Of a stretch of 16,741 nt of DNA, positions 2,099 through 16,682 are shown piece after piece. Every line of letters starts with the position of its first letter. The stretch's first letter is position 1. Below the pieces are notes generated by a model that was not told where the DNA came from, did not search any database, and saw nothing but the letters and a program-made list of their open reading frames with translations. The position numbers were made by a program, and so were the translations under genes. This stretch comes from an uncultured Desulfovibrio sp. GTDB lineage: Bacteria > Desulfobacterota > Desulfovibrionia > Desulfovibrionales > Desulfovibrionaceae. The stretch spans positions 1 through 16,741 of the forward strand of contig CAMBWG010000007.1 of the NCBI GenBank assembly GCA_945871415.1, in the 5' to 3' direction.

Positions 2099-2240
2099 GA
2101 GCGTTTCACCTTTGAAAAAGGCGAAACACGAGGCGGCGGCACAACGCCGCCCGGCCCGAACGGGCGGAAAAACCGCGTTTTTTCCGCGAAACGACAGGTC
2201 GTATGGTTTGGGACGCAACGCGTTTCAAACTGAAATGCTC
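2099..2240 (+). repeat. family 1 intergenic repeat, copy 1
   Basis: Complete copy, 142 bp, between the maf stop and ilvD. In order it holds stem-loop 1 (GCGTTTCACC / GGCGAAAC), stem-loop 2 (GGCGGC / GCCGCC), stem-loop 3 (GCGGAAAAA / TTTTTTCCGC) and stem-loop 4 (GTTTGGGACGC / GCGTTTCAAAC, with two mispairs). The ends are GAGCG and ATGCTC, an imperfect terminal inverted repeat. Its right end is only 14 nt from the last base of the maf stop codon. Confidence 0.85.
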
Positions 2241-2254
2241 CAGGCCGGCGGCTG

Positions 2255-2893
2255 TCAGCGCGGCGTCCCGGTAGCGCCGGGACATATCCAGCCCTGTTCC
2301 AGCAGGCGGGCCGCCAGCCGGGTGACGGGCAGGCCGACGACGTTGCTCCATGAGCCCCGCACTTCAGAGACAAGGAAAGCCCCCTGTCCCTGAATGGCAT
2401 AGGCTCCGGCCTTGTCCAGCGGTTCGCCGGTGCGCACGTAGGCGCGCAGAATATCGTCCGGCCAGGGATGGAAACGGACGCTGCTGCTTTCGCTGAAGCT
2501 CTGCTCCCTGCCGTCGGGGGTGACGAGGCAGACGCCGCTGATGACGTGGTGTTCCCTGCCGGAAAGATCATGGAGCATGCGCAGAGCATCGGCATCGTCG
2601 CAGGGTTTGCCCAGCAGACGGGAGTCCAGCGCCACGATGGTATCGGCCGCCAGCAGCAGAAGGTCCGAAGACGGCCCGCCCACGAGGTCGAGAGCCGCCC
2701 GGGCCTTGGCCGCGGCGGCGCGCCGCACATAGGCGTCCGGCTTTTCGCCGGGCAGCGGGCGAGGCTCCGCGGCGTCCGGCACGCAGACCTCAAAAGGCAG
2801 TCCCCATTCCTCCATGAAGCTGCGGCGGCGCGGCGAGGCTGAGGCCAGAATCAGCCGCAGGCCGGGTTTCAGACAAAAGAGAGGGGTGCTCAT
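2255..2893 (-). CDS. maf: Maf-family nucleoside triphosphate pyrophosphatase, YhdE type
   Basis: Maf proteins hydrolyse non-canonical or excess nucleoside triphosphates to the monophosphate and pyrophosphate in the cytoplasm. The 212 residues carry the signature SASPRR (18-23), AADTIV (82-87) with the catalytic Asp84, GKP (95-97), and KAGAYAIQGQGAFLV (161-175) with SWSNVVGLPV. The AGAY.IQG form is typical of the dTTP/UTP-preferring YhdE branch rather than the m7GTP-preferring YceF branch; that substrate is inferred from the motif. The start ATG shares ATGA with the stop of the phosphoesterase upstream, so the two are probably translationally coupled. A roughly 10-residue extension precedes the usual Maf start, which is common. 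An alternative start is unlikely because of the overlap and the CGGAG just upstream. Confidence 0.95.
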   Translation of the reverse strand: MSTPLFCLKPGLRLILASASPRRRSFMEEWGLPFEVCVPDAAEPRPLPGEKPDAYVRRAAAAKARAALDLVGGPSSDLLLLAADTIVALDSRLLGKPCDDADALRMLHDLSGREHHVISGVCLVTPDGREQSFSESSSVRFHPWPDDILRAYVRTGEPLDKAGAYAIQGQGAFLVSEVRGSWSNVVGLPVTRLAARLLEQGWICPGATGTPR

Positions 2894-3450
2894 GCCCCGG
2901 CGGCTCCGTTGGGGCGGTGTTGCAGGACGATATTGCCGTCCGTGTCCAGAACACTGAAGCAGCCGTCTTCATAAAGACCGTAGCTGGCGCGTGAGCCGCC
3001 CTTGGGCAGGCTGAGGGACCCGGGATTCCAGAAGTGGAGGCCGTCCAGGGTTTCGCCGCGCGGCACATGCGTATGTCCGCGCAGCAGGACGGTGCCCTTT
3101 TCAAACTGCGGAATGGGGGGCATTTCGGGAATATGATGCCCGTGGCTGACGAAAATATGCAGATTGTCGGCGTCTATCCAGGCGCTTTCAGTGACGGGGA
3201 AAGGCAGCAGGCCGAGATCCACTTCGGCGTCGCAGTTGCCGCGCACGGCGGTCACAGGGCAGGGCAGAGAACGCATGGTCTCCAGCACGCCCAGCGTATC
3301 GTAGCCCCGCGGCAGTCTGTTGCGCGGACCGTGGTAGACAAGATCGCCGAGCAGCACGAGCCGTTCCGGGGCAAGGGCGCGGGCCCGGTCGCAGATGAAG
3401 CGCAGGGCTTCCAGCGAGCCGTGCAGATCGGAAGCGATGAGCAGGCGCAT
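2890..3450 (-). CDS. YfcE/MJ0936-type metallophosphoesterase
   Basis: A 186-residue calcineurin-like phosphodiesterase of the small YfcE class, with a two-metal active site. All metal-binding blocks are visible: DLHG (D8, H10), GDLVYHG (D36), GNCD (N72), SHGHH (H103) and GHTHVPRG (H126, H128), then the family's NPGS motif (142-145). E. coli YfcE hydrolyses artificial phosphodiesters and its natural substrate is unknown, so I give no physiological role. The ATG at 3448-3450 is chosen over an upstream in-frame ATG because AAGGAGGG sits 8 nt before it. It overlaps the upstream Trm112-like stop by one base (TGATG) and the maf start by four, so this is one transcript. Confidence 0.93.
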   Translation of the reverse strand: MRLLIASDLHGSLEALRFICDRARALAPERLVLLGDLVYHGPRNRLPRGYDTLGVLETMRSLPCPVTAVRGNCDAEVDLGLLPFPVTESAWIDADNLHIFVSHGHHIPEMPPIPQFEKGTVLLRGHTHVPRGETLDGLHFWNPGSLSLPKGGSRASYGLYEDGCFSVLDTDGNIVLQHRPNGAAGA

Positions 3451-3650
3451 CAGTTGCGCCCTCCTTCCGTCCACTGATTATGAGGAACGGCTTCTTCCAC
3501 CAGCATGACGGGAATGCCGTCGCGCACGGGGTAGACCACGGCGCAGGCAGGGCAGAGAAAACCGTCGGGGTTCCCGGTATCGCCCAGGGCTTCCAGCGAG
3601 CCGTGGCAGCGGGGGCAGGCCAGTATTTCAAGCAGCTCTTGCGTGTTCAT
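3450..3650 (-). CDS. Trm112-family zinc-ribbon protein
   Basis: A 66-residue Trm112/YcaR-like protein. CPRC (12-15) and CPAC (33-36) form the expected four-cysteine zinc site, followed by the family's YPVRDGIPVML block (40-50). Eukaryotic and archaeal Trm112 activates several methyltransferases; the role of bacterial members is less clear, so a partner-binding role is only inferred. The start at 3648-3650 has AGAGG upstream. It is the first gene of the minus-strand operon, coupled to the phosphoesterase through a one-base TGATG overlap. A methyltransferase lies about 1.1 kb away on the other strand (4739-5509), a possible partner but without direct support. Confidence 0.92.
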   Translation of the reverse strand: MNTQELLEILACPRCHGSLEALGDTGNPDGFLCPACAVVYPVRDGIPVMLVEEAVPHNQWTEGGRN

Positions 3651-3748
3651 CGAAAAAAACCTCTGCTGTACCCTTATTCCTGAGGAAAAGGATGTGACGG
3701 AATGGCGTCGTTCTTTCGGGCTGAAGCCCGGGAACGGCATCGAGGGCG

Positions 3749-3777
3749 AGCATAGCCGGAGCCTGTGTGTGATGCAA
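3749..3777 (-). promoter_or_regulatory. putative sigma70 promoter of the Trm112-yfcE-maf operon
   Basis: On the minus strand TTGCAT (3777-3772) is separated by exactly 17 nt from TATGCT (3754-3749). That places the transcript start about 90 nt before the Trm112-like start codon. A small GC hairpin (CGGGCT / AGCCCG, about 3718-3731) lies in the leader. Judged by eye only. Confidence 0.45.
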
Positions 3778-3851
3778 GCAGCGGGGACGGGCGACCGTTG
3801 CACTTGCTTTTTTTGCATGATGACTTAGGGTAGAGGCAGAGAGGATTGTGT

Positions 3852-4712
3852 ATGAAGCTTGTTGATCTGCATACCCACACCCAGGCTTCCGACGGTACGA
3901 ACGCGCCCGGCGATCTGGTGCGGCTGGCGCAGGAGTGCGGTCTGGCGGCAGTGGCCATCACGGATCATGATACGGTTTCAGGACTTGCCGAGGCTCAGGC
4001 CGCCGGAAAGGAATGCGGAATAGACGTGGTGCGGGGGTGCGAACTCTCGACCAGCACCGATATGGGCGAGATGCACATTCTCGGTCTCTGGTTGCCGGAG
4101 GACGTGAGTCCTCTGCAGGGAAAGCTGGAATTTCTGCGGCGAAAACGGGGCGAACGCAATATCCGTATCGTGGAAAAACTGCAGCATCTCGGCATCGATA
4201 TTTCCATAGAGGAAGTTCTGGACGAAGCCCGGGGCGAGTGCGTGGGGCGGCCGCATATTGCGGCGGTGCTTATCCGCAAGGGCGTCGTGAAGGATATCGG
4301 CTCGGCTTTCAAGGAATATCTTGGCTACTACGGCAAGGCTTATCTGCCCAAGGATGTTCTGGAGCCGGAAGAAGCCGTGCGCCTGTTGTGCGAGCTGGGG
4401 GCGACCGTGAGCTGGGCGCATCCCATGCTGTCGAAGACCAGCGACGAATGGCGGGACAATTTCCTGCGCCGTCTGGTGGACAACGGCCTGAGCGCCATAG
4501 AGGCCTATCACAGCGAACATTCCGACGCGGATGTGCGTGTCTGCATTGATATGGCGCGCCGTTACGGACTGGCCCTGAGCGGCGGTTCGGATTATCACGG
4601 GACCAATAAACCGAAGATTCGCCTCGGCGTCGGCTACGGGGGGCTGCGTGTGCCCTATGCCGTGTACGAGGCATTGCAGACGCAACGCGCCCGGCGCGGC
4701 CTGCCCGTGTAG
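3852..4712 (+). CDS. PHP-domain phosphoesterase, TrpH/YciV (RNase AM) type
   Basis: The 286-residue protein has the full PHP metal-ligand series: DLHTHTQASDG (5-15; H7, H9, D14), ITDHDT (D38, H39, D40), GCELS (E64), H75, GRPHIA (H135), WAHP (H190), AYHS (H220) and GGSDYHG (D247, H249). Length and motifs match the YciV/TrpH family. E. coli RNase AM of this family trims 5' ends of small rRNA precursors, and other members act as 3',5'-nucleoside bisphosphate phosphatases, so the substrate is not settled here. The start is the ATG at 3852, six bases after GAGAGGA; a TTG two codons upstream is less likely. It heads a plus-strand operon with the methyltransferase (26 nt gap) and cheW, and is divergent from the Trm112-like operon. 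Confidence 0.92.
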   Translation: MKLVDLHTHTQASDGTNAPGDLVRLAQECGLAAVAITDHDTVSGLAEAQAAGKECGIDVVRGCELSTSTDMGEMHILGLWLPEDVSPLQGKLEFLRRKRGERNIRIVEKLQHLGIDISIEEVLDEARGECVGRPHIAAVLIRKGVVKDIGSAFKEYLGYYGKAYLPKDVLEPEEAVRLLCELGATVSWAHPMLSKTSDEWRDNFLRRLVDNGLSAIEAYHSEHSDADVRVCIDMARRYGLALSGGSDYHGTNKPKIRLGVGYGGLRVPYAVYEALQTQRARRGLPV

Positions 4713-4738
4713 GCCGTCCGGCGGCTGCGAGGGGACTT

Positions 4739-5509
4739 ATGCGCCGTTTTTATCAGGAAAGCTGGCAGGGGATTCCGTTCAGCACCTTTTCGCATCTTTC
4801 CTTTTTTCATCTGGCGGAGCCCAAGTTCTACGGCACCTTCTATGAAGAATTGTTTCGCCGTTACAAGAACTGGGAGGATCTGCCCGCGCAATGGCGCGAG
4901 AACAAGAAGCAGGATGCCGCGTGGCTGGCGCGAATTCTTGAGGAGCGGCGGCGGGCCGAGGACTGGCCGCCGGATCGGCCCTTGCGCGTGCTGTCCATAG
5001 GCAGCGGCGTCGGCTATATGGAGCACGCTCTGCTGGAGCAGGTTCCCGGGCTGGAGCTGCATGTCAATGAGCCGAGCACCGTGGGCATGCGCTGGCTGCG
5101 CAACATCATCCCGGCGGATCGCATCTACATAGGGCTGCCGCCAGCCTGCCTGCCCTCAGACATTCAGTATGACATGATCTATCTTTCCGCCGTGGATTAC
5201 AGTATACCACAGCGGGAGCTGGAACATCTGCTGGGAGAGCTCCGTTCTCAGCTGACGCCCGGCGGCGAACTGGTCTGTCTGTCCGCCTCGCTGCTGGAAG
5301 AAGATTCCTTTGTGGGCAGTCTGGTCAATCTGCTGAAGAATATCATCCGCTGCGGCCTGCATTTCCTTGGAGTGCGGCGGCAGCAGTTCTGGGGCTGGCG
5401 TCGCACGCGAGCCGAATACAAGGCCCTGTTCCGGGAGGCCGGTTTCGCCAATATCCGGGACGGATGGCTGGACGACAATGTCGAAACCTATTGGATTCGC
5501 GGCGTATAA
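4739..5509 (+). CDS. class I SAM-dependent methyltransferase, substrate unknown
   Basis: 256 residues. After a hydrophilic 80-residue N-terminal region rich in aromatic and charged residues comes the Rossmann SAM motif VLSIGSGVGYMEHALLEQ (84-101), an acidic residue in HVNEPS (E111) that would hold the ribose, YDMIYLSAVDYSIP (144-157) as motif II, and LTPGGELVCLSASL (172-185) as motif III. The C-terminal part ends in a Trp/Arg-rich block and FREAGF, a common closing helix-strand of small-molecule methyltransferases. I cannot assign a substrate. GAGGGG lies four bases before the ATG. It is 26 nt after the PHP gene and 22 nt before cheW, so it is co-transcribed. Confidence 0.85.
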   Translation: MRRFYQESWQGIPFSTFSHLSFFHLAEPKFYGTFYEELFRRYKNWEDLPAQWRENKKQDAAWLARILEERRRAEDWPPDRPLRVLSIGSGVGYMEHALLEQVPGLELHVNEPSTVGMRWLRNIIPADRIYIGLPPACLPSDIQYDMIYLSAVDYSIPQRELEHLLGELRSQLTPGGELVCLSASLLEEDSFVGSLVNLLKNIIRCGLHFLGVRRQQFWGWRRTRAEYKALFREAGFANIRDGWLDDNVETYWIRGV

Positions 5510-5531
5510 CGCGCCCGTCAAGGAGGGATGC

Positions 5532-6008
5532 ATGGACGATGCGCTGAACAAGAGCGGCAATGAGATCTTGCAGCTGGTGACGTTTTCCATCGGTGAAGAG
5601 GATTTCGGCGTGGATATCCTCAAGGTGCAGGAAATCATCCGCATGATGGATATCACCAAGGTGCCGCGCGCTCCTGAATTCGTGGAGGGCGTCATCAACC
5701 TGCGCGGCAAGGTCATTCCCATTATCGACCTGCGCCGCCGTTTCGGCCGGGCTCCGCGTCCTCACGACAAGGATACGCGCATTATCGTTATCGAGATGAG
5801 CGGCATCATTGTGGGCTTTGTGGTGGACGCCGTGTCCGAGGTGCTGCGCATACCCAAGAGCACGGTGGAGCCGGCGCCGCCGGTCGTGGCGGGCGTGGAC
5901 GCCGACTACATCAGCGGCGTGGGCAAGCTTGAAGATCGACTGCTGATTCTGCTCGATCTCGACAAGCTGCTTTCCAGCGAGGACCTGGACATGCTCAGCG
6001 AGATATAA
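5532..6008 (+). CDS. cheW: chemotaxis coupling protein CheW
   Basis: A single-domain CheW of 158 residues that bridges chemoreceptors and the CheA kinase at the inner membrane. The fold is evident from LVTFSIGEEDFGVDILKVQE (15-34), the core VEGVINLRGKVIPIIDL (51-67) with the conserved Asn-Leu-Arg-Gly receptor-binding turn, IIVGFVVDAVSEVL (92-105) and YISGVGKLEDRLLILLDL (126-143). The ATG at 5532 follows AGGAGGG at ideal distance; the frame remains open further upstream inside the methyltransferase gene, but that part is out of phase with it and non-homologous. It is an orphan: no cheA, cheR or receptor gene is nearby, and it ends an operon of RNA/nucleotide-type enzymes. Confidence 0.95.
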   Translation: MDDALNKSGNEILQLVTFSIGEEDFGVDILKVQEIIRMMDITKVPRAPEFVEGVINLRGKVIPIIDLRRRFGRAPRPHDKDTRIIVIEMSGIIVGFVVDAVSEVLRIPKSTVEPAPPVVAGVDADYISGVGKLEDRLLILLDLDKLLSSEDLDMLSEI

Positions 6009-6021
6009 CTCTGTTCCTTGC

Positions 6022-6070
6022 AACAACAAAAAACGGCGGAAGGTTTCTTCCGCCGTTTTTTGTTGTTTTA
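6022..6070 (+). terminator. strong intrinsic terminator after cheW
   Basis: A perfect 21-bp inverted repeat (6022-6042 with 6047-6067, GTTT loop) has a GC-rich core CGGCGGAAG / CTTCCGCCG and an outer A-tract/T-tract TTTTTTGTTGTTTTA. It starts 14 nt after the cheW stop. The symmetrical A/T flanks would let it work on both strands. Confidence 0.93.
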
Positions 6071-6137
6071 GAGCGTGTTAGAGCCTGTTAATACAGATTT
6101 GCAATTTATTTCAAATAAATAGAAATGTCGAACGCTC
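6071..6137 (+). repeat. family 3 AT-rich element with GAGCGT / AACGCTC ends
   Basis: A 67-bp AT-rich island in GC-rich surroundings. It begins GAGCGTGTTAGAGC, ends AACGCTC, and contains the perfect palindrome ATTTATTT / AAATAAAT (6104-6120, one central C). A diverged copy follows the family 1 repeat at the right end of the window (16689 onward), sharing CTGTTA, a TTTATT core and ATAAATAGAAA. Confidence 0.6.
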
Positions 6138-6142
6138 CGGTT

Positions 6143-6262
6143 CCTTCTGAAAAAGCGCGCTGGGGAAGGGATGGGGGGCTTGGGGGAAGGACTACAAGAA
6201 CGCCTTTCCTTCGGAAAGGCTGGGCCCTCTCGCGCTAGCAGAGGGGGTTCCCTTCCCCCCAA
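6143..6262 (-). repeat. family 2 post-stop repeat, copy A
   Basis: Read in the sense of the minus-strand dehydrogenase, it starts 19 nt after the stop. The outer stem is TTGGGGGGAAGG / CCTTCCCCCAA (one bulge) and encloses two inner hairpins, CCCTCT / AGAGGG and CCTTTCC / GGAAAGG (6203-6219), giving a three-way junction. A pyrimidine-rich run and AGCGCGCTTTTT follow. It may serve as the 3' end signal of the dehydrogenase mRNA. Confidence 0.75.
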
Positions 6263-6281
6263 ATAACTTACGAGGTCCGGC

Positions 6282-7208
6282 TTATGCCAGACCGAGATCT
6301 TTCAGCAGGTTGTCCACGGCCATGCGGCCCATGGTATTGGACGAACCCGGCGTGGACGAGGAGCAGTGAGAGCCCATGACCAGATTGTCCAGCGTATACC
6401 AGCCTTCTTCGGCAGGCGGTTCCTGCTCGAAGACGTCAAGACCGGCCCCGTAGATACGGCCTTCCTTCAGGGCCGCCAGCAGGGCCGCGCCGTCGATGAG
6501 GCCGCCGCGGGCCGTGTTGATGAGGATGGCCGTGGGCTTCATCATGGCCAGCCGTCCGGCGTTGATCATATGGCGGGTGCTGTCGTCCAGCACGGTATGC
6601 AGACTGATGAAGTCGGCTTCGCGGCAGATGCGTTCCACATCGGCACGTTCAATGCCGTTTTCCGCGGCATAGGCGTCATCCCAGTAGAGATCGTGGGCCA
6701 GAATCTTCATGGAGAAACCGCGGGCGCGGCGCACAACCGCCTTGCCGATGCTGCCAAGGCCGATGATGCCCAGCGTCGCGCCGAAGAGGTCCGTGCCCGT
6801 AATTTTGCTCCAGTCCTTGTGGCGGCAGCGGGCGTCAATGAGCGGCACCTTGCGGGCCACCGTCAGCATGAGGGCCAGCGTATAATCGGCCACAGCTTCG
6901 GTGGGCGCGCCCAGGGTGCGGGAAACCCGGATGCCGCGCGCCTCGCAGGCGGCCAGATCGATATTGTCCAGCCCCACGCCGTACTTGGCCACGGCCCGGA
7001 GTTTCGGGGCCGCCTCCAGCACTTCGGCGGAGACGGGGTCCACGCCCACGATCAGGCCTTCGCAGTCGGCAAGACGGGCTTTCATGGCCGCGGCATCAAG
7101 AATGCCGCCCGTGTCGTTGCGGCTGTACTCGATGCCCGCGGCGCGCAGGCGATCAAAGAGCGTCGGGTCTGTTTTGCCGAAGGAACGCGGCGTTACCAGC
7201 ACTTTCAT
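6282..7208 (-). CDS. NAD-dependent D-2-hydroxyacid dehydrogenase (SerA-like)
   Basis: 308 residues of the D-isomer 2-hydroxyacid dehydrogenase fold. YGVGLDNID (77-85) is the substrate-side signature, IGLGSIG (149-155) the dinucleotide motif, and Asp173 in AHDLY favours NAD over NADP. The catalytic set is R234 (NTARGGLID), E263 (DVFEQEPP) and H281 in GSHCSSST. The region after the histidine, SSSTPGSSNTMG, differs from the usual AxxTxEa form. The length lacks the ACT domain of classical SerA, so 3-phosphoglycerate is not certain; glyoxylate, hydroxypyruvate, sulfolactate-type or mercapto acids are alternatives. The start at 7208 has AAGGAG seven bases upstream. It is divergent from the symporter/desulfidase pair across a 428-bp region. 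Confidence 0.92.
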   Translation of the reverse strand: MKVLVTPRSFGKTDPTLFDRLRAAGIEYSRNDTGGILDAAAMKARLADCEGLIVGVDPVSAEVLEAAPKLRAVAKYGVGLDNIDLAACEARGIRVSRTLGAPTEAVADYTLALMLTVARKVPLIDARCRHKDWSKITGTDLFGATLGIIGLGSIGKAVVRRARGFSMKILAHDLYWDDAYAAENGIERADVERICREADFISLHTVLDDSTRHMINAGRLAMMKPTAILINTARGGLIDGAALLAALKEGRIYGAGLDVFEQEPPAEEGWYTLDNLVMGSHCSSSTPGSSNTMGRMAVDNLLKDLGLA

Positions 7209-7339
7209 ACACAACTCCTTTTGGGACGGAGACAGGATTTTCAGGGCAGCAGCGCAGGGCGCGCGCCCTGCCGCTCCGCAAGCCTTGCCTCTGGACGGCG
7301 GATTGTCAAGTTCGCGGACCTTTTCCGGCGTGGCGTCCG
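7209..7339 (-). promoter_or_regulatory. leader of the dehydrogenase with a perfect 18-bp palindrome
   Basis: Upstream of the dehydrogenase, TTGACA on the minus strand (7309-7304) is a fair -35 box, but the hexamer 17 nt later (AAGGCT) is a poor -10, so the promoter is uncertain. Between it and the ribosome site lies GCAGGGC-GCGC-GCCCTGC (7254-7271), a perfect palindrome that could be an operator or a leader hairpin. Confidence 0.35.
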
Positions 7340-7479
7340 GAGCGTTTTTCCTTTGGAAACGGGGAAAAGGCGAGGGCTCAGTGCCGCCCGGCTCAAGGAG
7401 AACTGAAAAAACACATTTTTTCCGCGAGACAACAGGCCGTATGGTTTGAAACGCAACGCGTTTCAAACGGAACCTGCTT
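7340..7479 (+). repeat. family 1 intergenic repeat, copy 2 (diverged)
   Basis: A diverged copy. Stem-loops 1 and 2 are degenerate (GAGCGTTTTTCCTTTGG start; GCCGCCCGGC retained). Stem-loop 3 is AAAAAACACATTTTTT, and stem-loop 4 is perfect (GTTTGAAACGC / GCGTTTCAAAC). The right end reads CTGCTTC instead of ATGCTC. It lies in the divergent region between the dehydrogenase and the symporter. Confidence 0.75.
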
Positions 7480-7636
7480 CAGGAGCGGCGGGGGAAGGCT
7501 TTTTCGCCGTCGTATTGCGAGCCCCGCGCTTTTGTGCCAATCTGAAACAGCCGGGCTGTTTTCTGCCTGCGGCGGACCTGTGGCCGCCGACGAGGGGGCG
7601 GGAAGTGTGGGCTGCCGGCAGGAAGGAGGTTTTCCT
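7480..7636 (+). promoter_or_regulatory. leader of the symporter-desulfidase operon
   Basis: No gene. A weak TTGCGA-17-CAATCT promoter-like pair is present. It is followed by AAACAGC / GCTGTTT with TTTT (about 7544-7563), which resembles a small terminator, then GGCGG / CCGCC, and then CTGCCGGCAG just before a strong GGAAGGAGGT. The order terminator-like hairpin, second hairpin, coding start is compatible with an attenuated leader, but nothing identifies a ligand. Confidence 0.3.
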
Positions 7637-8836
7637 ATGGCAAAAGTGGGCGATCTGTCTCTGATTCTCAAACTGCTCGGCGGCATCATTATCGGCGCGC
7701 TGCTGGGTTTTGTGGCCAATGAAAGCGTCATGAATGTGGTCGTGTCCGTGCGCCACATCTTCGGTCAGATTATTTTCTTCCTTGTGCCGCTGGTCATTGT
7801 CGGCTTCATCACGCCCGCCATTGTCCGCCTCGGCCAGAATGCCAGCAAGATTCTGGTGGTCGGTGTGCTGCTGGCCTATGTTTCCTCTCTCGGTGCGGCG
7901 CTCTTTTCCACCTGCGCCGGTTATGCGCTGATTGATCACCTTTCCATCGCCACCAGCACGGAAACGCTGCGCAAGCTGCCGGAAATGGTCTTCCGCCTGG
8001 ATATTCCTCCGTTGTTCAGTGTCATGAGCGCTCTTACGCTGGCGCTGGTCTTCGGCGTGGCCATCGCCTGGACAAAGTCCGAAACCATGAGCCGGCTTTT
8101 CGAGGAGCTGGAACGCGTCATGACCATGCTTGTGTCGCGTGTGCTTATTCCCGTATTGCCGTTCTTTGTGGGCCTGTCCTTCATGGGGTTGTCCTATGAA
8201 GGCTCGCTGAGCCGTCATCTGCCTGTGTTCATCAGCATGGTGCTTATCGTGCTGGTGGGGCACTTCATCTGGCTGGCGGTGCTGTACGGGATTGGCGGCA
8301 TGGTTTCCGGCCGCAGTCCCAGAGAAGTGTTCCGTCACTACATGCCCGCCTATCTGACGGCTGTCGGCACCATGTCCAGCGCCGCCACCCTGCCTGTGGC
8401 GCTGTCCTGCGCCCGTAAGTCCCGCGTGCTGAGCAGAAGTATGGTGGAATTTATGGTGCCGCTGGGCGCTACCGTGCATCTGTGCGGCTCCGTGCTGACG
8501 GAAACCTTCTTTGTCATGACTCTGAGCCAGATTCTCTACGGAGCGCTGCCGAGCCTGAGCACCATGCTGCTGTTCTGCGTGCTGCTGGCCATCTTTGCCG
8601 TGGGCGCTCCCGGCGTCCCCGGCGGCACGGTCGTGGCTTCGCTGGGCATCGTCACGGGCGTTCTTGGTTTTGACCAGAACGGCGTGGCCCTGCTGATCGC
8701 CATCTTTGCCCTGCAGGACAGCTTCGGCACCGCCTGCAACGTCACCGGCGACGGCGCGCTGACCCTGATGCTGGAAGGCATTTTCAACCGTAACGGCGAA
8801 CTTGATTCGCTGCAAAATCCCTCGGAGCAGGCATGA
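7637..8836 (+). CDS. SLC1/DAACS-family amino acid symporter, atypical cation motif
   Basis: A 399-residue inner-membrane transporter with the SLC1 (GltPh-like) layout: hydrophobic N-terminal helices, hairpin 1 with TMSSAATLPV (245-254), helix 7 with PLGATVHLCG (275-284), hairpin 2 with GAPGVPGG (323-330) and helix 8 with LQDSFGTACNVTGDGA (359-374). The canonical NMDG of helix 7 is HLCG, and the GltPh Arg397 position, which binds the acidic side chain, is Gly364. D361, N368 and D372 are kept. A neutral rather than acidic substrate is inferred, and the overlapping cysteine desulfidase suggests cysteine, serine or a similar amino acid. The ATG at 7637 follows GGAAGGAGGT with a 6-nt spacer. The stop overlaps the next start (ATGA). 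Confidence 0.93.
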   Translation: MAKVGDLSLILKLLGGIIIGALLGFVANESVMNVVVSVRHIFGQIIFFLVPLVIVGFITPAIVRLGQNASKILVVGVLLAYVSSLGAALFSTCAGYALIDHLSIATSTETLRKLPEMVFRLDIPPLFSVMSALTLALVFGVAIAWTKSETMSRLFEELERVMTMLVSRVLIPVLPFFVGLSFMGLSYEGSLSRHLPVFISMVLIVLVGHFIWLAVLYGIGGMVSGRSPREVFRHYMPAYLTAVGTMSSAATLPVALSCARKSRVLSRSMVEFMVPLGATVHLCGSVLTETFFVMTLSQILYGALPSLSTMLLFCVLLAIFAVGAPGVPGGTVVASLGIVTGVLGFDQNGVALLIAIFALQDSFGTACNVTGDGALTLMLEGIFNRNGELDSLQNPSEQA

Positions 8837-10122: not shown

Positions 10123-10138
10123 GCTGTTGGTTTGGAGA

Positions 10139-10230
10139 GATTGGGGGAGAGGGAACCCCTCCGCTTGCGCGGGAGGTGGTCCCTCTCCCCCAAGCCCCCT
10201 CTCCTTCCCCCAGCGCGCTTTGTTCTGGTC
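10139..10230 (+). repeat. family 2 post-stop repeat, copy B
   Basis: It starts 18 nt after the cyuA stop. The perfect 14-bp outer stem is TTGGGGGAGAGGGA / TCCCTCTCCCCCAA (10141-10154 with 10180-10193), and the inner hairpin is CCTCC / GGAGG. It continues with a pyrimidine-rich run and AGCGCGCTTTGTTC. Same sense relative to its gene as copies A, C and D. Confidence 0.8.
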
Positions 10231-10375
10231 AATAAAATGTTGCGGGAGCTCTGCCGCTTTCCCCGGGCAAACGTCCCCCGGAGAATGAAAAGCGGGCGGA
10301 TCTTTTTCAAAAATTTTATGAGCCATCTTTTGAAAGAGTAAATCGAGCATCCGAAAGCAATCTCTGCAACACAAA
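10231..10375. other. intergenic stretch without a gene, possible small RNA
   Basis: No coding sequence seen. It holds CCCCGGG / CCCCCGG and a longer imperfect inverted repeat, CTTTTTCAAAA with TTTTGAAAGAG (about 10302-10339). Because a strong terminator follows although cyuA already has its own 3' element, a small independent transcript is possible; I see no convincing promoter. Confidence 0.25.
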
Positions 10376-10420
10376 GAGCCGGACAGCCGCCGCATGGCGG
10401 ACTGTCCGGCTCTGTTTTTT
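10376..10420 (+). terminator. strong intrinsic terminator
   Basis: The stem GAGCCGGACAG-CCGCC / GGCGG-A-CTGTCCGGCTC is 16 bp with one bulged A and a GCAT loop, followed by TGTTTTTT. It lies 254 nt after the cyuA stop, between convergent cyuA and degP. The minus-strand side is followed only by TTTGTGTTG, so plus-strand use is favoured. Confidence 0.88.
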
Positions 10421-10476
10421 CTGAAGCTCCGGGGGACGGTTATCTGAGGAAGAGCGTCGCGACGCTGCATTTACCC

Positions 10477-10545
10477 TGATAAAGCGCGTTGGGGGAAGGA
10501 AACACCCCTTGCGCGCCAGCCAAGGGGGGCCTTCCCCCCGGAAGC
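10477..10545 (-). repeat. family 2 post-stop repeat, copy C (short)
   Basis: In the sense of the minus-strand protease it starts 11 nt after the stop. The outer stem is GGGGGAAGG / CCTTCCCCC (10491-10499 with 10530-10538) and the inner stem CCCCTTG / CAAGGGG. It is followed by AACGCGCTTTATC, matching the tail of copies A and B. The pyrimidine-rich segment between stem and tail is missing. Confidence 0.72.
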
Positions 10546-10549
10546 ACAC

Positions 10550-11884
10550 TCAGCGCACAATCAGACGTGCATAGTATTCGCGGCCATTGCGGATGACGTG
10601 CAGCAGCACCTGATTAGCCATCCGTTCGCGGCGGAAGGCGTCTATGAGTGCTTCCAGCGTAGTGGTGCGCGTGCCGCCGACGCCCACGATGATGTCGCCG
10701 CGTCGCAGGAAGGAGGCCGGGCCGTCCCGGCGGGCTGCAACAACGGCCACGCCGCCGCGGGCAGGCTGGAGCGAGAGACCCCAGCGGCTTTCCATCATGC
10801 GCCGGGCTGTTTCGTTGTCAAAGGGAACGGGCGTCATGCTCAGGCGAAGTTCCCGGTCACCGCGCGCCACGCGCAGGGTGAGAGGTTCGCCGGGGAGCTG
10901 ATTGCGCAGGATGTTGAGGTAGTCGCGCCGGTCGTCCACGGCGGATTTGTTGATTTCGAGAATGACGTCGCCGGGTTCCATACCCGCCCGCTGGGCCGGG
11001 CCGCCGTTGAAAATGGCCGTGACCAGCAGCCCGCGGGCCTCCTTGAGACCAAGGGCCATGGCAATGCGCTGATCCATGTCCTCGCCCGACAGCCCGAGCC
11101 ATAGCGGGGAGACCTTGCCGCCGTGAAGCAGGTTGTCCATGACGCGGCGCGCCTTGTTGACGGGAATGGCAAAACCGATGCCTTCGCCCTTGGCGGAAAC
11201 GGCGGTATTGATACCGATCAGCTGCCCTTCGAGATTCAGGAGCGGTCCGCCGCTGTTGCCGGGATTGATGGCGGCGTCTGTCTGGAGCAGATCGGTCAGC
11301 ACGGCGTCTTCGCTGCGGATGGTGCGCCCCATGGCGGAGATGACGCCCACCGTGACCGTATGATTATAGCCGAAGGGATTGCCGATGGCGATGGCGGTTT
11401 CTCCGGGCATGATGTCCGAGGAATCGGCCATGGGGACCGAGGGCAGATTATGCGCGCCGCGCAGTTCGAGCACGGCAATGTCGAAATCGGGATCGGCGCC
11501 CTTGACTGCGGCGGCAAATTCCCGGCCGTCCTGAAGCCGTACCATGACGTCATCCCCGCCCGCGATGACGTGGGCGTTGGTCAGCACCAGCCCGCGGGCG
11601 CCGTCCACAATGACGCCGGAACCGAGACTGACGCGCTTTTGCCTGCGGGGGCGCATGGACTGGGAGAACGGGTCTTCGGCGAAACCGAAGAACTGTTCCA
11701 GCGGCGAGAAGCGCTGGCCTTCGATGATATGGGTGCTGGTGATATTGACAACGGCGGGAGCCGTGGCGTTGACGGCCCGGACTACGGGAGTAAGGCGCGG
11801 ACTGTCGGGCGCGGGAGCGGCAATGCTGCCTGTGGTCAGCAGCAGGGCGCAGGTCAGTCCTGCAAGCAGGGGAGAAAGACGCAT
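10550..11884 (-). CDS. degP: periplasmic serine protease, DegP/HtrA family
   Basis: 444 residues. A signal peptide of about 23-25 residues (MRLSPLLAGLTCALLLTTGS then AAPA) directs it to the periplasm. The trypsin-like domain has His105 (LTNAHVI), Asp135 (DFDIAVLEL) and Ser211 (NPGNSGGPLL). Two PDZ domains follow, about 258-350 (LWLGL, GGPAQRAGMEPGDVILEIN) and 365-440 (FLRRGDIIVGVGG), the second short. Such proteins degrade or chaperone misfolded envelope proteins as oligomers. The start at 11882-11884 has GGAGGA seven bases upstream; an in-frame ATG further upstream lies in a repeat fragment. It is monocistronic, convergent with cyuA and divergent from cobT. The exact paralogue (DegP versus DegQ) cannot be decided; the flexible loop (about 52-83) is intermediate. 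Confidence 0.94.
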   Translation of the reverse strand: MRLSPLLAGLTCALLLTTGSIAAPAPDSPRLTPVVRAVNATAPAVVNITSTHIIEGQRFSPLEQFFGFAEDPFSQSMRPRRQKRVSLGSGVIVDGARGLVLTNAHVIAGGDDVMVRLQDGREFAAAVKGADPDFDIAVLELRGAHNLPSVPMADSSDIMPGETAIAIGNPFGYNHTVTVGVISAMGRTIRSEDAVLTDLLQTDAAINPGNSGGPLLNLEGQLIGINTAVSAKGEGIGFAIPVNKARRVMDNLLHGGKVSPLWLGLSGEDMDQRIAMALGLKEARGLLVTAIFNGGPAQRAGMEPGDVILEINKSAVDDRRDYLNILRNQLPGEPLTLRVARGDRELRLSMTPVPFDNETARRMMESRWGLSLQPARGGVAVVAARRDGPASFLRRGDIIVGVGGTRTTTLEALIDAFRRERMANQVLLHVIRNGREYYARLIVR

Positions 11885-11906
11885 GAAACTATCCTCCGGG
11901 GTGGAA

Positions 11907-11942
11907 TTTTGAAACGTTCCGCGTTTCACACTGAAAATTCTC
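11907..11942 (+). repeat. family 1 repeat fragment (right end only)
   Basis: Only the right-hand part of family 1 is present: a degenerate stem-loop 4 (TGAAACG / CGTTTCA) followed by CACTGAAAATTCTC, matching the ends of full copies. It lies 40 nt left of full copy 3 in the same orientation, between the degP start and that copy. Confidence 0.6.
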
Positions 11943-11982
11943 TGGCGCTGTTCATAGTCGTGTCTTTTGTGCGCGCATGCAA

Positions 11983-12124
11983 GAGCGTTTTACCTTTGAA
12001 AAAGGTAAAACGCGAGACGGCGGCACAGCGCCGCCCGGCCCGATTGAACGGAAAAAGCGTGGTTTACCGTGAAGCGGCAGGCCGTATGGTTTGAAATACA
12101 CAGCGTCTCACACTGAAAATGCAC
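11983..12124 (+). repeat. family 1 intergenic repeat, copy 3
   Basis: 142 bp, between divergent degP and cobT. Stem-loop 1 is perfect (GCGTTTTACCTTT / AAAGGTAAAACGC). Stem-loop 2 is GGC / GCC rich, stem-loop 3 is weakened (GGAAAAAGC / GGTTTACC), and stem-loop 4 is decayed (GTTTGAAATAC / GCGTCTCACAC). The ends are GAGCG and ATGCAC. Confidence 0.82.
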
Positions 12125-12135
12125 AAGCCCGTCGT

Positions 12136-12170
12136 TTGCGCCCCGGCGCGGGATACGCTACAAACACGGC
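12136..12170 (+). promoter_or_regulatory. candidate cobT promoter giving a leaderless mRNA
   Basis: TTGCGC (12136-12141), a 17-nt spacer and TACAAA (12159-12164) end seven bases before the cobT ATG, so a start at +7 would coincide with the A of the ATG. No Shine-Dalgarno sequence is visible before cobT, which fits. The match to consensus is only moderate. Confidence 0.3.
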
Positions 12171-13268
12171 ATGACGTACCAGAACTATTCTCTTTTGGCT
12201 GAGGTCGCCCCCGATGCCGTGATTGTGCCGGTCAGTCCGGCGGATCTTGCGGCGGCACAGGCGCATCTGGACAATCTTACCAAGCCGCAGGGCAGTCTCG
12301 GCCGCCTTGAGGAGCTGGCCCGGCGTCTTTATGCCATGCGCGGCGGTGAAACGCCGTTGCAGGTCAGCCCGGCGCTCATGTTCACCGTGGCGGGCGATCA
12401 CGGCGTGGCGGCGCAGGGTGTATCCCCGTTTCCGCAAATCGTCACCCGCCAGATGGTGGCAAATCTGCTGGCGGGCGGAGCCGGGGTCAATGTGCTGTGC
12501 CGCGCCGGCGGTATGGATTTTTATCTTGTGGATGCCGGTTGCGTTGGTGGTCCCTTCCCGCCGCACGAAAAGTTGCTGGATCGCCGTCTGGGAGACGGCA
12601 CGGCCGATATGAGTCTGGGCCCTGCCATGTCACGCGAGACGGCGGCTGAGGGTCTGCGGCGCGGCATGGCCCTTGTGGCGGAACAGGCCGCCCGGGGCGT
12701 GCGCTGCTTTGCGACCGGGGAAATGGGTATTGCCAATACGACCGCCGCAACCGCCATTTATTGCGCGCTGCTGGGGCTTGATCCCGACGCCATGACCGGT
12801 CCCGGCGCGGGAGCCGGGCCGGAGCGCGTCCGGCACAAGGCGGCAGTTATTCGTCGGGCGCTGTCCGTCAATGCGGCGGCGTGCCGCAGGGACGATCCGC
12901 TGGGCGTGCTGGCGGCCGTGGGCGGCTTTGAGATAGCCGTCATGGCGGGCATCATGCTGGGGGCGGCGGCGCAGCGTCTGCCCGTGCTGGTGGACGGCTT
13001 CATTTGCAGCGCAGCCTATGCCGTGGCCGTGCGCCTGTGTCCGGCGCTGGCCGGCTACGCCGTGCTTTCCCACGCCAGCGCGGAGCCGGGCCATGTGCCC
13101 GCGCTGGAAAGTCTGGAAGAGGGCGCGCCTCTGCTGCATCTGGGTATGCGGCTGGGCGAGGGCACGGGGGCCGCTGTGGCCTATCATCTGCTGCGTTGCG
13201 CCGCGGCTGTTTTCAATGAGATGGCAACGTTCGACGGCGCTGGTGTGACGGGGGAAACATGCGGCTAG
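12171..13268 (+). CDS. cobT: nicotinate-nucleotide--dimethylbenzimidazole phosphoribosyltransferase
   Basis: CobT makes alpha-ribazole phosphate from nicotinate mononucleotide and a lower-ligand base for cobalamin nucleotide-loop assembly in the cytoplasm. The 365 residues match the family length. DNLTKPQGSLGRLEELA (34-50), AGDHGVAAQGVSPFPQ (74-89), GEMGIANTT (183-191), GPGAGAG (210-216), DGFI (275-278) and GMRLGEGTGAA (325-335) are the family blocks; Glu330 corresponds to the catalytic glutamate (E317 in Salmonella). No ribosome-binding site precedes the ATG, and I saw no cobalamin riboswitch in the 286-bp upstream region. No other cobalamin gene is present; the last 10 bases overlap the ABC ATPase gene. 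Confidence 0.96.
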   Translation: MTYQNYSLLAEVAPDAVIVPVSPADLAAAQAHLDNLTKPQGSLGRLEELARRLYAMRGGETPLQVSPALMFTVAGDHGVAAQGVSPFPQIVTRQMVANLLAGGAGVNVLCRAGGMDFYLVDAGCVGGPFPPHEKLLDRRLGDGTADMSLGPAMSRETAAEGLRRGMALVAEQAARGVRCFATGEMGIANTTAATAIYCALLGLDPDAMTGPGAGAGPERVRHKAAVIRRALSVNAAACRRDDPLGVLAAVGGFEIAVMAGIMLGAAAQRLPVLVDGFICSAAYAVAVRLCPALAGYAVLSHASAEPGHVPALESLEEGAPLLHLGMRLGEGTGAAVAYHLLRCAAAVFNEMATFDGAGVTGETCG

Positions 13269-14263
13269 CTCCCGGCGACGCGCACGCGCCGCTGCTTGCC
13301 CTGCGGCAGGTTTCCCGCTTTTTCCGTGTCGGCGGCGGTCTCTGGCGCGATGCCGCATGGCTGCGCGCCGTGGACGGCGTTGATCTTGTGCTCCATGCCG
13401 GGGAAAGCCTCGGGCTGGTGGGCGAATCCGGCTGCGGCAAGTCCACGCTGGGGCGTCTTGCCTGCGGCCTGTTGTCGCCCGGCTCGGGCGAAGTTCTGTT
13501 TCTGGGCAGGCCCCTGTCCCCGGCAGGGGCAAAAAGTCCGCTGGCAGGGCGCGTGCAGATGGTCTTTCAGGACCCCTTTTCCTCGCTGAATCCCCGGATG
13601 CGCGTCGGGCAGGCCGTGGAAGAACCGCTTGCGGCCCTGGCAGGCCGGGACGGCGCGCAGGGAGAGCTGTCGCCGGAAGCCCGGCGGCGCACCGTGGCCG
13701 AGATTTTTGCCACTATCGGTCTTGCAGGTATGGAGCGGCGCTATCCGCACGAATTTTCCGGCGGACAGCGGCAGCGTATCGCCGTGGCGCGGGCTCTTGT
13801 CACCCGCCCCGATCTGATCGTCTGCGACGAGCCGGTGTCCGCTCTGGATGCCTCGGTACAGGCGCAGATTCTTAATCTGCTGCGGGATGCTCAGGAGCGC
13901 TTCGGCCCGGCCTATCTGTTTATTTCCCACGATCTGGCGGTGGTCGGTTTTATGTGCCCGCGTATCATGGTCATGTATCTGGGGCAGATTGTGGAAGAAG
14001 GCCCCCGGGAGTGCCTGCTGGAGCGTCCGGCTCATCCTTATACGCGGGCCCTGCTGGCGGCGTCTCCCCGGCTGTCCGCCGATCCGGCGGCCCGCCGTCG
14101 TCTGCCCGCGCCCGTAGAGGGCGAACTGCCCAGCCCGCTTGCCCCCCCGCCGGGTTGCCGTTTTCACCCCCGTTGCCCACAGGCCGACGCACAGTGCCGG
14201 TCAGCCGTGCCTCCCTGGCGCGAGCTTGCTCCCGGCTGGCGCGTGCGCTGTTTCAAGGCGTGA
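13259..14263 (+). CDS. ABC transporter ATPase, DppF/OppF (peptide/nickel) type, orphan
   Basis: A 334-residue nucleotide-binding subunit for a peptide- or nickel-type importer. Walker A is GESGCGKST (55-63), the Q-loop is FQDPFSSLNPRMRVGQ (103-118), the signature is FSGGQRQR (166-173), Walker B is LIVCDEPVSALD (186-197) and the H-loop is ISHD (222-225). The C-terminal oligo_HPY region has ERPAHPYTRALL and CRFHPRCPQADAQC (300-313), the cysteine pattern common in DppD/DppF-type ATPases. GGGGGA precedes the ATG, which lies within the last codons of cobT, so the two are translationally coupled. No binding protein, permease or partner ATPase is in the window, so the substrate is open; a corrinoid or metal link to cobT is only a guess. 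Confidence 0.92.
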   Translation: MRLAPGDAHAPLLALRQVSRFFRVGGGLWRDAAWLRAVDGVDLVLHAGESLGLVGESGCGKSTLGRLACGLLSPGSGEVLFLGRPLSPAGAKSPLAGRVQMVFQDPFSSLNPRMRVGQAVEEPLAALAGRDGAQGELSPEARRRTVAEIFATIGLAGMERRYPHEFSGGQRQRIAVARALVTRPDLIVCDEPVSALDASVQAQILNLLRDAQERFGPAYLFISHDLAVVGFMCPRIMVMYLGQIVEEGPRECLLERPAHPYTRALLAASPRLSADPAARRRLPAPVEGELPSPLAPPPGCRFHPRCPQADAQCRSAVPPWRELAPGWRVRCFKA

Positions 14264-14284
14264 CGTTTCCGGCAGTGCGCTTTG

Positions 14285-14375
14285 TTCGAGGGAGGAGAGG
14301 GATGCCCTTTTGAAAAAGGTTATCCCTCTCCTCCCTCGAACTCCCTCCCCTTCCGAAAACTTTTACTTTGGTTAT
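14285..14375 (+). repeat. family 2 post-stop repeat, copy D
   Basis: It starts 21 nt after the ABC ATPase stop. The perfect 19-bp stem is TTCGAGGGAGGAGAGGGAT with its complement (14285-14303 with 14322-14340), and the inner hairpin is CCTTT / AAAGG with a TGAA loop. A pyrimidine-rich run and GAAAACTTTTACTTTG follow. The tail differs from copies A-C, but the layout and sense are the same. Confidence 0.75.
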
Positions 14376-14518
14376 TGAGCAGCAGAATGACACGGGGGGA
14401 TGGACGCGTTCCTGCCGTCTCCCAGGGACGGCGAAGGAGCATTCCGTTGTGCGCCCTGCCGGGGACGACGATATGCGGCGGGTGGTTGCGCCGCCGTAAT
14501 GCAACATTCTTCAGAATC
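14376..14518. other. intergenic stretch without a recognised feature
   Basis: 143 bases between the family 2 and family 1 repeats upstream of trmD. GGCGGGTGGTTGCGCCGCC can fold, but I see no gene, promoter or further repeat. Confidence 0.3.
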
Positions 14519-14661
14519 GAGCGTTTTGCCATTGAAAAAGGTGAAACGCGAGGCGGCGGCACTGCGCCGCCCGGCCAGAAGTGAGCGGAAAAACGCGGTT
14601 TTTCCGCGAAACGACAGGCCGTATGGTTTGAAACGCACAGCGTTTCAAACTGAAAATGCTC
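14519..14661 (+). repeat. family 1 intergenic repeat, copy 4
   Basis: 143 bp, about 70 bp before trmD, and the best-preserved full copy. Stem-loop 1 is GCGTTTTGCC / GGTGAAACGC (with G-T wobbles), stem-loop 2 GGCGGC / GCCGCC, stem-loop 3 a perfect GCGGAAAAAC / GTTTTTCCGC and stem-loop 4 a perfect GTTTGAAACGC / GCGTTTCAAAC with an ACA loop. The ends are GAGCGTTTT and AAAATGCTC, complementary at 8 of 9 positions. Confidence 0.88.
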
Positions 14662-14733
14662 TAAGATAAGCGCAGGGCTTCGGCCTTGCCGGGGCGTGCG
14701 CGATCTCTTTTGACAGACGGAGCGACTTGCGGC

Positions 14734-16041
14734 ATGGTTTGCGGCATGCCGCAGTTTCACATTGTTTCTCTTTTCCCGGAATTTTTTGATTCGCCGCTGG
14801 GCGTGGCGCTCATGGGACGCGCCCGTGACGCGGGCATTGTGGACGTGACGTTTCACAATCCGCGGGATTTCAGCAGCGACAGGCATCGCCATGTGGACGA
14901 CAGTCCCTATGGCGGCGGTCCCGGTATGGTCTTGCAGGGGGAGCCGGTGGCGGCTGCCCTGCGATCCATTCCGCAGCCGGGGCGCATGCTGGTCATGAGC
15001 CCGGGAGGACGTCCCATGACGCAGCGCATGGCGCGCGCATGGGCGAAGGAAGATCATCTGACTATTGTCTGCGGCCGGTATGAGGGGCTGGATCAACGCC
15101 TTTTCGAGCTGTTCCCGCTGGAGGCGGTCAGCCTGGGCGACGTGGTGCTCAACGGCGGCGAAACGGCGGCGCTGGCGCTGATGGAAGCCGTAGCGCGCCT
15201 GATGCCCGGCTTCATGGGCAAGGAGGCTTCCGGCGACGAAGAGAGCTTTTCGGCGGGCCTGCTGGAGTATCCGCACTACACACGCCCCGAAGTGCTGGAG
15301 GGGCTGCCTGTGCCGGAAGTGCTGCGCAGCGGCGATCACGGGCGCATTGCCCGCTGGCGACGGGAAATGTCGCTGCGGGCGACGCTGGCGGTCCGGCCGG
15401 ATCTGCTGGACAGCGCACCGCTGGGGCGCGAGGATGCGCTGACCCTGGCGGGAGTGCCGCGTGAACGGGCGGGGCGCAATCTCTCCTTGTGCCTGATGCA
15501 CTATCCCGTTATGCTGGATGCGAAAAATAGCGGCGTTTCCTCTTTGACAAATTTTGATATTCACGATATAGCCCGGATTTCCTGCAGCTATGCGATGGGG
15601 CCGTTCTATGTGGTAACGCCGCTGGAAGATCAGCAGCGTCTGCTGACAGAGATTCTGCAGCACTGGACGGACGGTCCCGGAGGCCGGGGCAACCCCGACA
15701 GGGCCAGAGCTTTGAGCCTTGTCCGGCCGGCGCTTTCGCTGGATGCGGCCATGACGGATCTGGAACAGCGAACGGGGCAGCGCCCCCGGCTGGTCACAAG
15801 TTCCGCCACATGGCCCGCAGGCAGGAATGCGCCGCCTTTGCTGACGTGCGCCGATGTGCTGGAATGGTGCCGGAGCGGCCCCGTGCTGCTCTGTCTCGGT
15901 ACTGCCCACGGTCTGGCGCCGGAAGTGCTGGCGCGCAGCGACGGGCAGTTGCGCCCTGTGCGCTTCCTGCAATACAACCACCTTTCGGTGCGGAGCGCGG
16001 CCGCTATCCTGGCCGACAGAATTTTGGGCGACTATCAATAA
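14734..16041 (+). CDS. trmD: tRNA (guanine37-N1)-methyltransferase fused to a second SPOUT-like domain
   Basis: The N-terminal ~235 residues are TrmD, which methylates N1 of G37 next to the anticodon: [12 protein letters not shown] (54-65), [12 protein letters not shown] (111-122), [11 protein letters not shown] (133-143), RP-rich [20 protein letters not shown] (175-194) and [12 protein letters not shown] (199-210). E170 occupies the place of the catalytic Asp169 of Haemophilus TrmD. Residues ~251-435 form an added domain with [36 protein letters not shown] and [15 protein letters not shown], which resembles the knotted methyltransferase TM1570 encoded between trmD and rplS in Thermotoga. The start is uncertain: the ATG at 14734 has GGAG 11 nt upstream, 14746 is an alternative, and a TTG at 14686 is unlikely. 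It is followed by rplS after 53 nt. Confidence 0.95.
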
Positions 16042-16094
16042 CGCCGCGATATCAAGGACGGTTCCCTGTGAGCCGGCTATTCAAGGAGTTGGGC

Positions 16095-16442
16095 ATGGAC
16101 ATCATTAAAAAGATTGAACAAGAGAACATGCGCATGGATATGCCCGTGTTTCGCTCCGGCGACACGGTTAAAGTGCATCTGCGCATTGTGGAAGGCGAAA
16201 AGGAACGTATTCAGGTGTTCCAGGGCAATGTGATCCGCATCAGCCGCGGCACGACGGACGCGACCTTCACCGTTCGCAAGATTTCCGACGGCGTGGGCGT
16301 GGAACGCATCTTCCCCATGCATTCTCCCTTCATTGATCACGTGGAAGTGGTGACGCAGGGCCGTGTGCGCCGCAGCCGTCTCTACTACCTGCGCGCCCTC
16401 AAGGGCAAGGCCGCTCGTATCAAGCCCCGCGGCCGCTTCTGA
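16095..16442 (+). CDS. rplS: 50S ribosomal protein L19
   Basis: The 115-residue L19 lies at the interface of the ribosomal subunits. The sequence is typical throughout: [19 protein letters not shown] (1-19), [20 protein letters not shown] (19-38), [12 protein letters not shown] (41-52), [20 protein letters not shown] (57-76), and the basic tail [20 protein letters not shown] (91-110). AAGGAG lies six bases before the ATG. Translation from upstream in-frame codons would run through trmD sequence out of phase and is rejected. It is co-transcribed with trmD, as in most bacteria. Confidence 0.98.
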
Positions 16443-16577
16443 TTTTTGTCTTGTTGTTCCGGCCATTCTTCGGAATGAGCGGAAAACAGCGCCTGAACAG
16501 CCTCATCCAATGCCCCGGGCATTGGTATGGGGCTGTTTGCGTAACGGAGCCCGGTGCCGGGCGTACCCGGAAAGGTA
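16443..16577. other. 3' region of rplS with an imperfect hairpin
   Basis: No gene seen. AACAGCC...CCAATGCCC pairs with GGGCATTGG...GGCTGTT (16496-16537), a long hairpin with small internal loops, but only TTTGCG follows, so it is not a classical terminator. It may protect the trmD-rplS mRNA 3' end. Confidence 0.4.
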
Positions 16578-16682
16578 GCAGGGCAGCGCAGCCCTGCCCG
16601 AAGTGCGTGGAAAAATGCGTTTTTCCGTGAAGCGACAGGCCGTATGGTTTGAAACGCAACGCGTTTCAAACTGAAAATGCTC
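16578..16682 (+). repeat. family 1 intergenic repeat, copy 5 (left end missing)
   Basis: Stem-loop 1 is absent. The stem-loop 2 position holds a different but perfect stem (GCAGGGC / GCCCTGC). Stem-loop 3 is GGAAAAA / TTTTTCC, stem-loop 4 is perfect (GTTTGAAACGC / GCGTTTCAAAC), and the right end is AAAATGCTC. Same orientation as all other copies. Confidence 0.82.

Follow-up and report, generated by a model that had tools for sequence, protein, structure and literature searches.

Why does a single stretch of Desulfovibrio DNA carry five copies of a repeat built of four hairpins, all on one strand, and is the fold of such a repeat useful to the host or to the repeat itself? The stretch (the window below, 16,741 nucleotides) is contig C7 of a draft genome of an uncultured Desulfovibrio sp., G000, which comprises 2.56 Mb in 435 contigs and is 79% complete. 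In what follows, G-numbers denote the genomes compared, L-numbers the fetched sequence stretches and C-numbers the contigs. An original prediction, made from the letters of the window, had proposed a strand-locked family with a MITE-like origin, a selected structure and a strand linked to replication direction or insertion polarity. Judged from sequence, the repeats are copies of a small non-coding mobile element (MITE), which a bacterial transposase of known type most likely moves. We consider it highly probable that the element is an IS630-moved MITE inserted at TA, whose fold is kept while it spreads and decays after it has landed.

The repeat family and its copies in the window

The five copies and the fragment that had been reported for the window are present where they were placed, and the five copies had bit scores of 94 to 153 in a profile search. 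They and the parts of the best of them are as follows:

2099 to 2240, plus strand: copy 1, near full length, with TA on its left (2097-2098) and CA on its right
7340 to 7479, plus strand: copy 2, near full length with decayed ends, between divergent genes
11907 to 11942, plus strand: fragment, only stem-loop 4 and the right end
11983 to 12124, plus strand: copy 3, near full length, between divergent genes
14519 to 14661, plus strand: copy 4, full length and top-scoring in the window, with a right TA at 14662-14663
14519 to 14537, plus strand: left terminal repeat of copy 4
14521 to 14549, plus strand: stem-loop 1 of copy 4 (model positions 3-31), including the left terminal repeat
14552 to 14571, plus strand: stem-loop 2 of copy 4 (model 34-53)
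14585 to 14607, plus strand: stem-loop 3 of copy 4 (model 67-90)
14626 to 14650, plus strand: stem-loop 4 of copy 4 (model 109-133)
14643 to 14661, plus strand: right-hand terminal repeat of copy 4 (as reverse complement GAGCATTTTCAGTTTGAAA), the most frequent of the right ends at 123 of 218
16578 to 16682, plus strand: copy 5, 5' truncated and without stem-loop 1 (profile match 16573-16682)

In G098, too, the corresponding place holds a truncated copy, the counterpart of copy 5. The paired change reported for stem-loop 1 was borne out, the model pair 9-25 being C-G in copy 1, T-A in copy 3 and T-G in copy 4. The perfect stem-loop 2 claimed for copy 5 stood in part: a 7-bp perfect stem (GCAGGGC/GCCCTGC) can be read by eye, but the copy is 5' truncated and its G098 counterpart retains only GGGC/GCCC. 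The window had no Rfam match at gathering score, and with it the candidate of a known Rfam RNA was rejected.

Other repeats share the window. A second small element of 67 nt at 6071-6137 has GAGCG...CGCTC ends, a TA on its left side only and an unrelated core, and its first 21 nt had no exact match in the 386 fetched loci. Another intergenic repeat, with long G-rich/C-rich hairpins, lies at 6152-6260, 10139-10220, 10458-10545 and 14265-14360 (limits by eye), and a 41-nt AT-rich direct repeat occurs at 6085-6125 and at 16689-16729, one copy directly after copy 5.

The four-hairpin family is dispersed, about 144 nt long, and ends in the terminal inverted repeats GAGC...GCTC; its shortness (a MITE being under 300 bp), its many scattered copies and its inverted ends are all traits by which MITEs are recognised. 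A profile search of the 21 largest contigs of G000 (338 kb, window included) found 68 copies above 40 bits, 45 of them near full length, which by extrapolation gives roughly 500 copies in the whole assembly, and 181 copies were found in 796 kb of G098. Copies occur at contig ends (L038:1-98, L038:19030-19078 and G000:C50:1-52), and the repeat therefore probably breaks the G000 assembly. Long reading frames run across copies. Among 79 genomes of the genus, 35 had at least one covariance-model match and 10, termed copy-rich here, had at least 40, diverged ones in the case of G033, while blastn gave no match in any of 24 genomes outside the genus. An exact 21-mer of the family occurs in at least 98 stretches of named records, and the 80 matches listed belong to Desulfovibrio, Ca. 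D. intestinigallinarum or Desulfovibrionaceae, plus one Mailhella. Among the open-licence papers listed in a literature search, none dealt with this repeat family in Desulfovibrio.

TA insertion sites and a probable IS630-type partner

Among 162 copies with both ends, TA was present on both sides of 83, on one side of 56 and on neither side of 23, against a frequency of TA among intergenic dinucleotides of 2.7%. In the 55 youngest copies (less than 5% from the consensus), 38 had TA on both sides and one on neither, from which it follows that the TA duplication decays with age. An automatic table of present and empty sites (156 rows: 54 empty, 87 present and 15 intermediate) was polluted by repeated flanks, and the empty-site evidence is for that reason limited to five insertions read by eye against the empty sites of relatives:

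L197:8268-8411, read against L042 (G000/G098 comparison)
L042:7535-7675, read against L197 (G000/G098 comparison), with a single TA in the relative
L047:9727-9872, read against L195 (G000/G098 comparison)
L038:14530-14673, read against L380 (G000/G098 comparison)
L188:746-888, read against L258 of G093, with a single TA in the relative

At three of the five (L197, L047 and L038) the insertion point in the relative holds CA, CG or TG instead of TA. The TA counts and the empty sites amount to a target site duplication, as expected of a MITE. At 42 of the 162 both-end copies a gene ends in a stop codon made up of the flanking TA and the opening G of the element, whereas only 834 of 7585 available TAs (11%) lie in stop codons; insertion there would be harmless, because TA and this G spell a new stop (TAG). 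Copies in head-to-tail tandem, separated by two bases (G021:C272:716-1006, G021:C262:2247-2536 and L043:4988-5230) look as if one copy had inserted into the flanking TA of another.

A candidate partner for the repeat was located where a DDE_3 search and a paired-end scan converged, on contig 4 of G098; the wide scan gave 149 pairs, mostly chance, one of which led to IS630. The G098 element is about 990 bp long, is flanked by TA and has an uninterrupted frame for a predicted transposase of 299 aa (PF13358, DDE_3, E 1.2e-33). In G021 a 91% identical copy with a broken coding frame and unrelated flanks starts and ends on identical bases; TA stands at both ends of the IS at these two unrelated sites. 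A DDE_3 transposase and a TA target place the element in the IS630/Tc1-mariner group. On its left the MITE most often (53 of 219) carries the left end of the G021 IS, identical in 19 of 19 nt, and next most often (29 of 219) the left end of the G098 IS, again identical over 19 nt; the match at the right end is weaker than at the left (16 of 21). The MITE accordingly shares its ends with an autonomous IS of the same or a related genome (G098 and G021; none was found in G000). Beyond the ends, the best match between the core of the MITE and the IS was only 10 nt (E 0.17), and the core is no fragment of the IS.

The MITE-like origin originally proposed has thus held up: the TA is duplicated, relatives have empty sites, and the ends match those of an IS630-type element. 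We infer that the MITE would be moved in trans by this transposase, which would be supplied by the IS of about 990 bp and recognise the GAGC ends, the element then inserting at a TA that would be duplicated. At E values up to 1e-20 the transposase was found in two of the ten copy-rich genomes and not in G000 or the seven others; where it was not found it may have been lost or been missed by the assembly, or the mover may be another element. In G002, the right end of the MITE is identical over 15 nt to that of one resident IS630 copy and differs at one base from two further copies, and on this match of ends G002 is a second MITE/IS630 pairing, in another lineage. G000 (C172), G098 (C140) and G021 (C84) each also have one separate DDE_3 frame, 280-281 aa long, which may be a relative that has been conserved or domesticated.

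Position among genes and the fate of the hairpins

The position of the copies was analysed in 398 loci from seven genomes (2.26 Mb), with one locus per intergenic region and strand, genes called by a simple purpose-written caller (a non-standard program) and intergenic regions of 60 bases or more as background. Between tandem genes, 132 copies lay along the direction of transcription and 70 against it (p 1.5e-5). Convergent genes flanked 96 loci and divergent genes 30, as against 196 and 217 background regions (odds ratio 3.5), and the remaining loci overlapped a called gene (32) or lay at stretch edges (38). By genome, the same-to-opposite counts were 19:10 in G000, 85:46 in G098, 12:4 in G097, 5:1 in G092, 3:4 in G065, 4:3 in G093 and 4:2 in G021, and on these counts G098 carries most of the weight of the bias. 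Across age classes the same-direction share was 0.59, 0.66, 0.77 and 0.71. The original observation that copies lie upstream of genes did not generalise: the window is unusual in its two divergent placements (copies 2 and 3), which are the arrangement that the family avoids. Under the mobile-element explanation, copies would survive mainly beyond gene ends, two to one along transcription.

The same bias along transcription and the enrichment between convergent genes would also be expected if the copies were RNA useful to the host, as 3' UTR stabilisers, terminators or processing sites (compare BIMEs and Correia elements), with the fold kept at each site, and the comparison of families also speaks for that explanation. 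Most stem pairs hold within the family, where two-sided change occurs mainly at 9-25, 10-24 and 117-125. Sister families in G002, G024 and G033 have stems that differ, in an unchanged hairpin order, and fold stably, and an extra hairpin and longer stems, with identical ends, mark most of the sequences examined from G064, G088 and G017 (24 sequences were read for the sister families, from best-scoring loci only). Covariation was counted in 18 sequences of four genomes (six from G000 and four each from G002, G024 and G033) over 33 pairs of stem-loops 1, 3 and 4, stem-loop 2 being left out because its columns have gaps between families. Standard pairs filled 94.9% of cells across the sister families, two-sided change was found at 19 of the 33 pairs, and the covariation score was 0.397, as against 0.142 for shuffled sequences and at most 0.092 with partners slid. 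Further pair types numbered 35, not above the shuffles, which reached that number in 85 of 500.

The fate of pairs among individual copies tells a different story from a fold kept at each site. With stem variants sorted by the number of copies that carry them among 245, pairing was kept in 21% of cells for variants in one to three copies, 37% for those in four to ten and 72% for those in more than ten (a class of only 24 pair states), while slid controls kept 27-50% with no rise with sharing. G-U stood against A-C at 12 to 5 states among widely shared variants and at 8 to 13 among private ones. Decay of G-C pairs over all copies, with four pairs left out, was 162 C-to-T against 160 G-to-A, and A-U pairs stood at 156 to 91 in the comparison of G-U with A-C, the control running the other way. 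Variation at stem and unpaired positions was 0.0076 and 0.0087 in the private class and, over all columns, 0.060 and 0.075 in the shared class; a reading of these values by which stems vary less was dropped.

A strict reciprocal ortholog search over seven genomes left four pairs, all between G000 and G098, and in these 46 of 261 stem positions (17.6%) and 35 of 207 unpaired positions (16.9%) had changed (p 0.90). The orthologous copies diverge about twice as much as their flanks (about 7%, in flanks that include coding DNA), and both species retain pairing at 12 of the 30 pairs that changed. A loose set of ten G000/G098 pairs had the same outcome (stems 91/526, unpaired 80/408, p 0.39), although two of its members (L051:8622/L189:14571 and L037:9249/L233:15156) were rejected as not orthologous because the positions of their flanks point to different sites.

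Since shared variants mostly pair, private variants mostly break pairs and orthologs change alike in stem and loop, the fold appears to be kept by spreading copies and, on few loci, not by resident ones. The spreading lineage keeps its fold, and on the few loci available the fold apparently has no job at each site; the selected structure of the original prediction is therefore supported for the lineage and finds no support at individual inserted copies (the four orthologous pairs). A host RNA kept at each site was rejected on this limited evidence of private variants that mostly break pairs and of four orthologous pairs, and neither an Rfam match in the window nor, by eye, a T-run after the hairpins speaks for it; we regard it as quite improbable. 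Template switching between hairpin arms can give paired changes in DNA palindromes, and stems restored in this way during replication, without selection, would yield two-sided changes with no use made of the fold. Such switching would be expected to mend the private changes of resident copies too, yet these kept pairing in only the 21% of cells noted above and the four orthologous pairs were without stem conservation, so that we think it rather unlikely to be the source of the paired changes. In the IS630-moved MITE, by comparison, compensatory change would preserve the hairpins in lineages still spreading and a landed copy would decay freely, as seen on few loci.

Strand, related elements and the use of the fold

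The five copies of the window do all lie on the plus strand, as first observed, but strand-locking was abandoned for the family, which in the 21 largest contigs of G000 has 40 plus and 28 minus copies on mixed contigs. All loci were on one strand in 7 of 50 stretches holding four or more loci, and strands cluster within stretches beyond chance (p 0.0016), so that a weak regional effect may remain. GC skew, which on draft contigs is a proxy for replication direction only, was compared with strand at 340 loci, all from stretches whose skew exceeds 0.02, and 190 agreed (p 0.034 locus-wise, taking loci as independent, and 0.09 by stretch-flip). A strand set by the direction of replication, or by the polarity of insertion with respect to the fork, would account for the window and the clustering and draws on G098, where 49 of 70 loci in the first 20 stretches (stretch-flip p 0.010) and 80 of 129 in a larger set were concordant; the pooled result and the counts elsewhere (G000 38/68, G097 12/25, G092 8/15) make it very unlikely, and the proposed link of strand to replication was not supported on these draft contigs. 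Two findings had been named in advance as ones that would count against the original prediction, copies on both strands without bias and no excess of paired substitutions: the first was obtained, with both strands used and no clear replication bias, and the second was not, paired substitutions far exceeding shuffled or slid controls. A REP/REPIN identity of the copies, with a RAYT (Y1) transposase as the mover, which their intergenic, palindromic and high-copy nature and the Y1 transposase genes in 46 of 79 genomes of the genus might suggest, is extremely improbable and was rejected, PF01797 having no match in five of the ten copy-rich genomes (the drafts G000, G033, G094, G095 and G098) and TA duplication and IS630 ends not being known as traits of REPs. 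Many Y1-type transposase genes were seen in the single-contig genomes G091 and G064 (35 and 13 matches).

The Desulfovibrio element is a MITE comparable to RUP and its IS630-Spn1 (PMC3049150, PMC2229807). The RUP of Streptococcus pneumoniae is likewise a MITE (107 bp) with IS630-Spn1-like ends and a TA target, over-represented between convergent genes, but it is tightly folded with its ends paired together, whereas the Desulfovibrio repeat is a chain of four or more separate hairpins (PMC3049150, PMC2229807). The two are likened by description and not by sequence, and compensatory change between families was measured here. RUP is 61% on the leading strand, mirroring genes (PMC3049150), and the enrichment of such repeats at gene ends is known and, in the passages concerned, is read as tolerance (PMC3049150, PMC2229807). 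ERIC and Correia/NEMIS are alike in their size of about 100-160 bp and their terminal TA and repeats, and differ in that their stem comes from the pairing of both ends; their transcripts fold and can affect mRNA, and among these elements only RUP is named, in the part of the review that treats them, as having a matching IS (PMC2229807, PMC3049150). The CIR of Caulobacter and Brucella are also intergenic, about 110 bp long and made of separate arms with a linker, and are set apart by description in having two arms, a GANTC methylation motif and another lineage (PMC2229807). Chunjie of Geobacter uraniireducens, a bacterial MITE of variable size, is set apart in the same manner at 235 bp (PMC10969869).

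The question addressed here is whether the folds of bacterial MITEs are useful to the host or to the element, and the answer so far favours the element. One family permits two tests, the first looking for compensatory change from family to family and the second following what becomes of pairs at orthologous sites. The present analysis contributes a test that starts to tell the element's need for its fold from the host's. It also carries a warning, namely that covariation across the copies of a repeat should not be read as evidence of a host RNA. The core hairpins (2 and 3), we infer, help the element to be copied, perhaps by folding as a plus-sense single strand. This single-strand idea draws on the excess of G-U over A-C among widely shared variants; over all copies, the decay of G-C pairs is symmetrical. 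More specifically, and only as a tentative suggestion that may well prove wrong, the hairpin core could be an intermediate that folds as a single strand, either RNA or one strand of the DNA, and without which the MITE would not be copied by a double-strand IS630-type transposase or would not outcompete others for it; the step would show because only spreading lineages have compensatory change. The sister families, with different stems on one plan and some with an IS630 of their own, make the role of the fold directly testable, and if the suggestion is true, the folded intermediate would be a step in the spread of MITEs that is missing from the usual cut-and-paste scheme.
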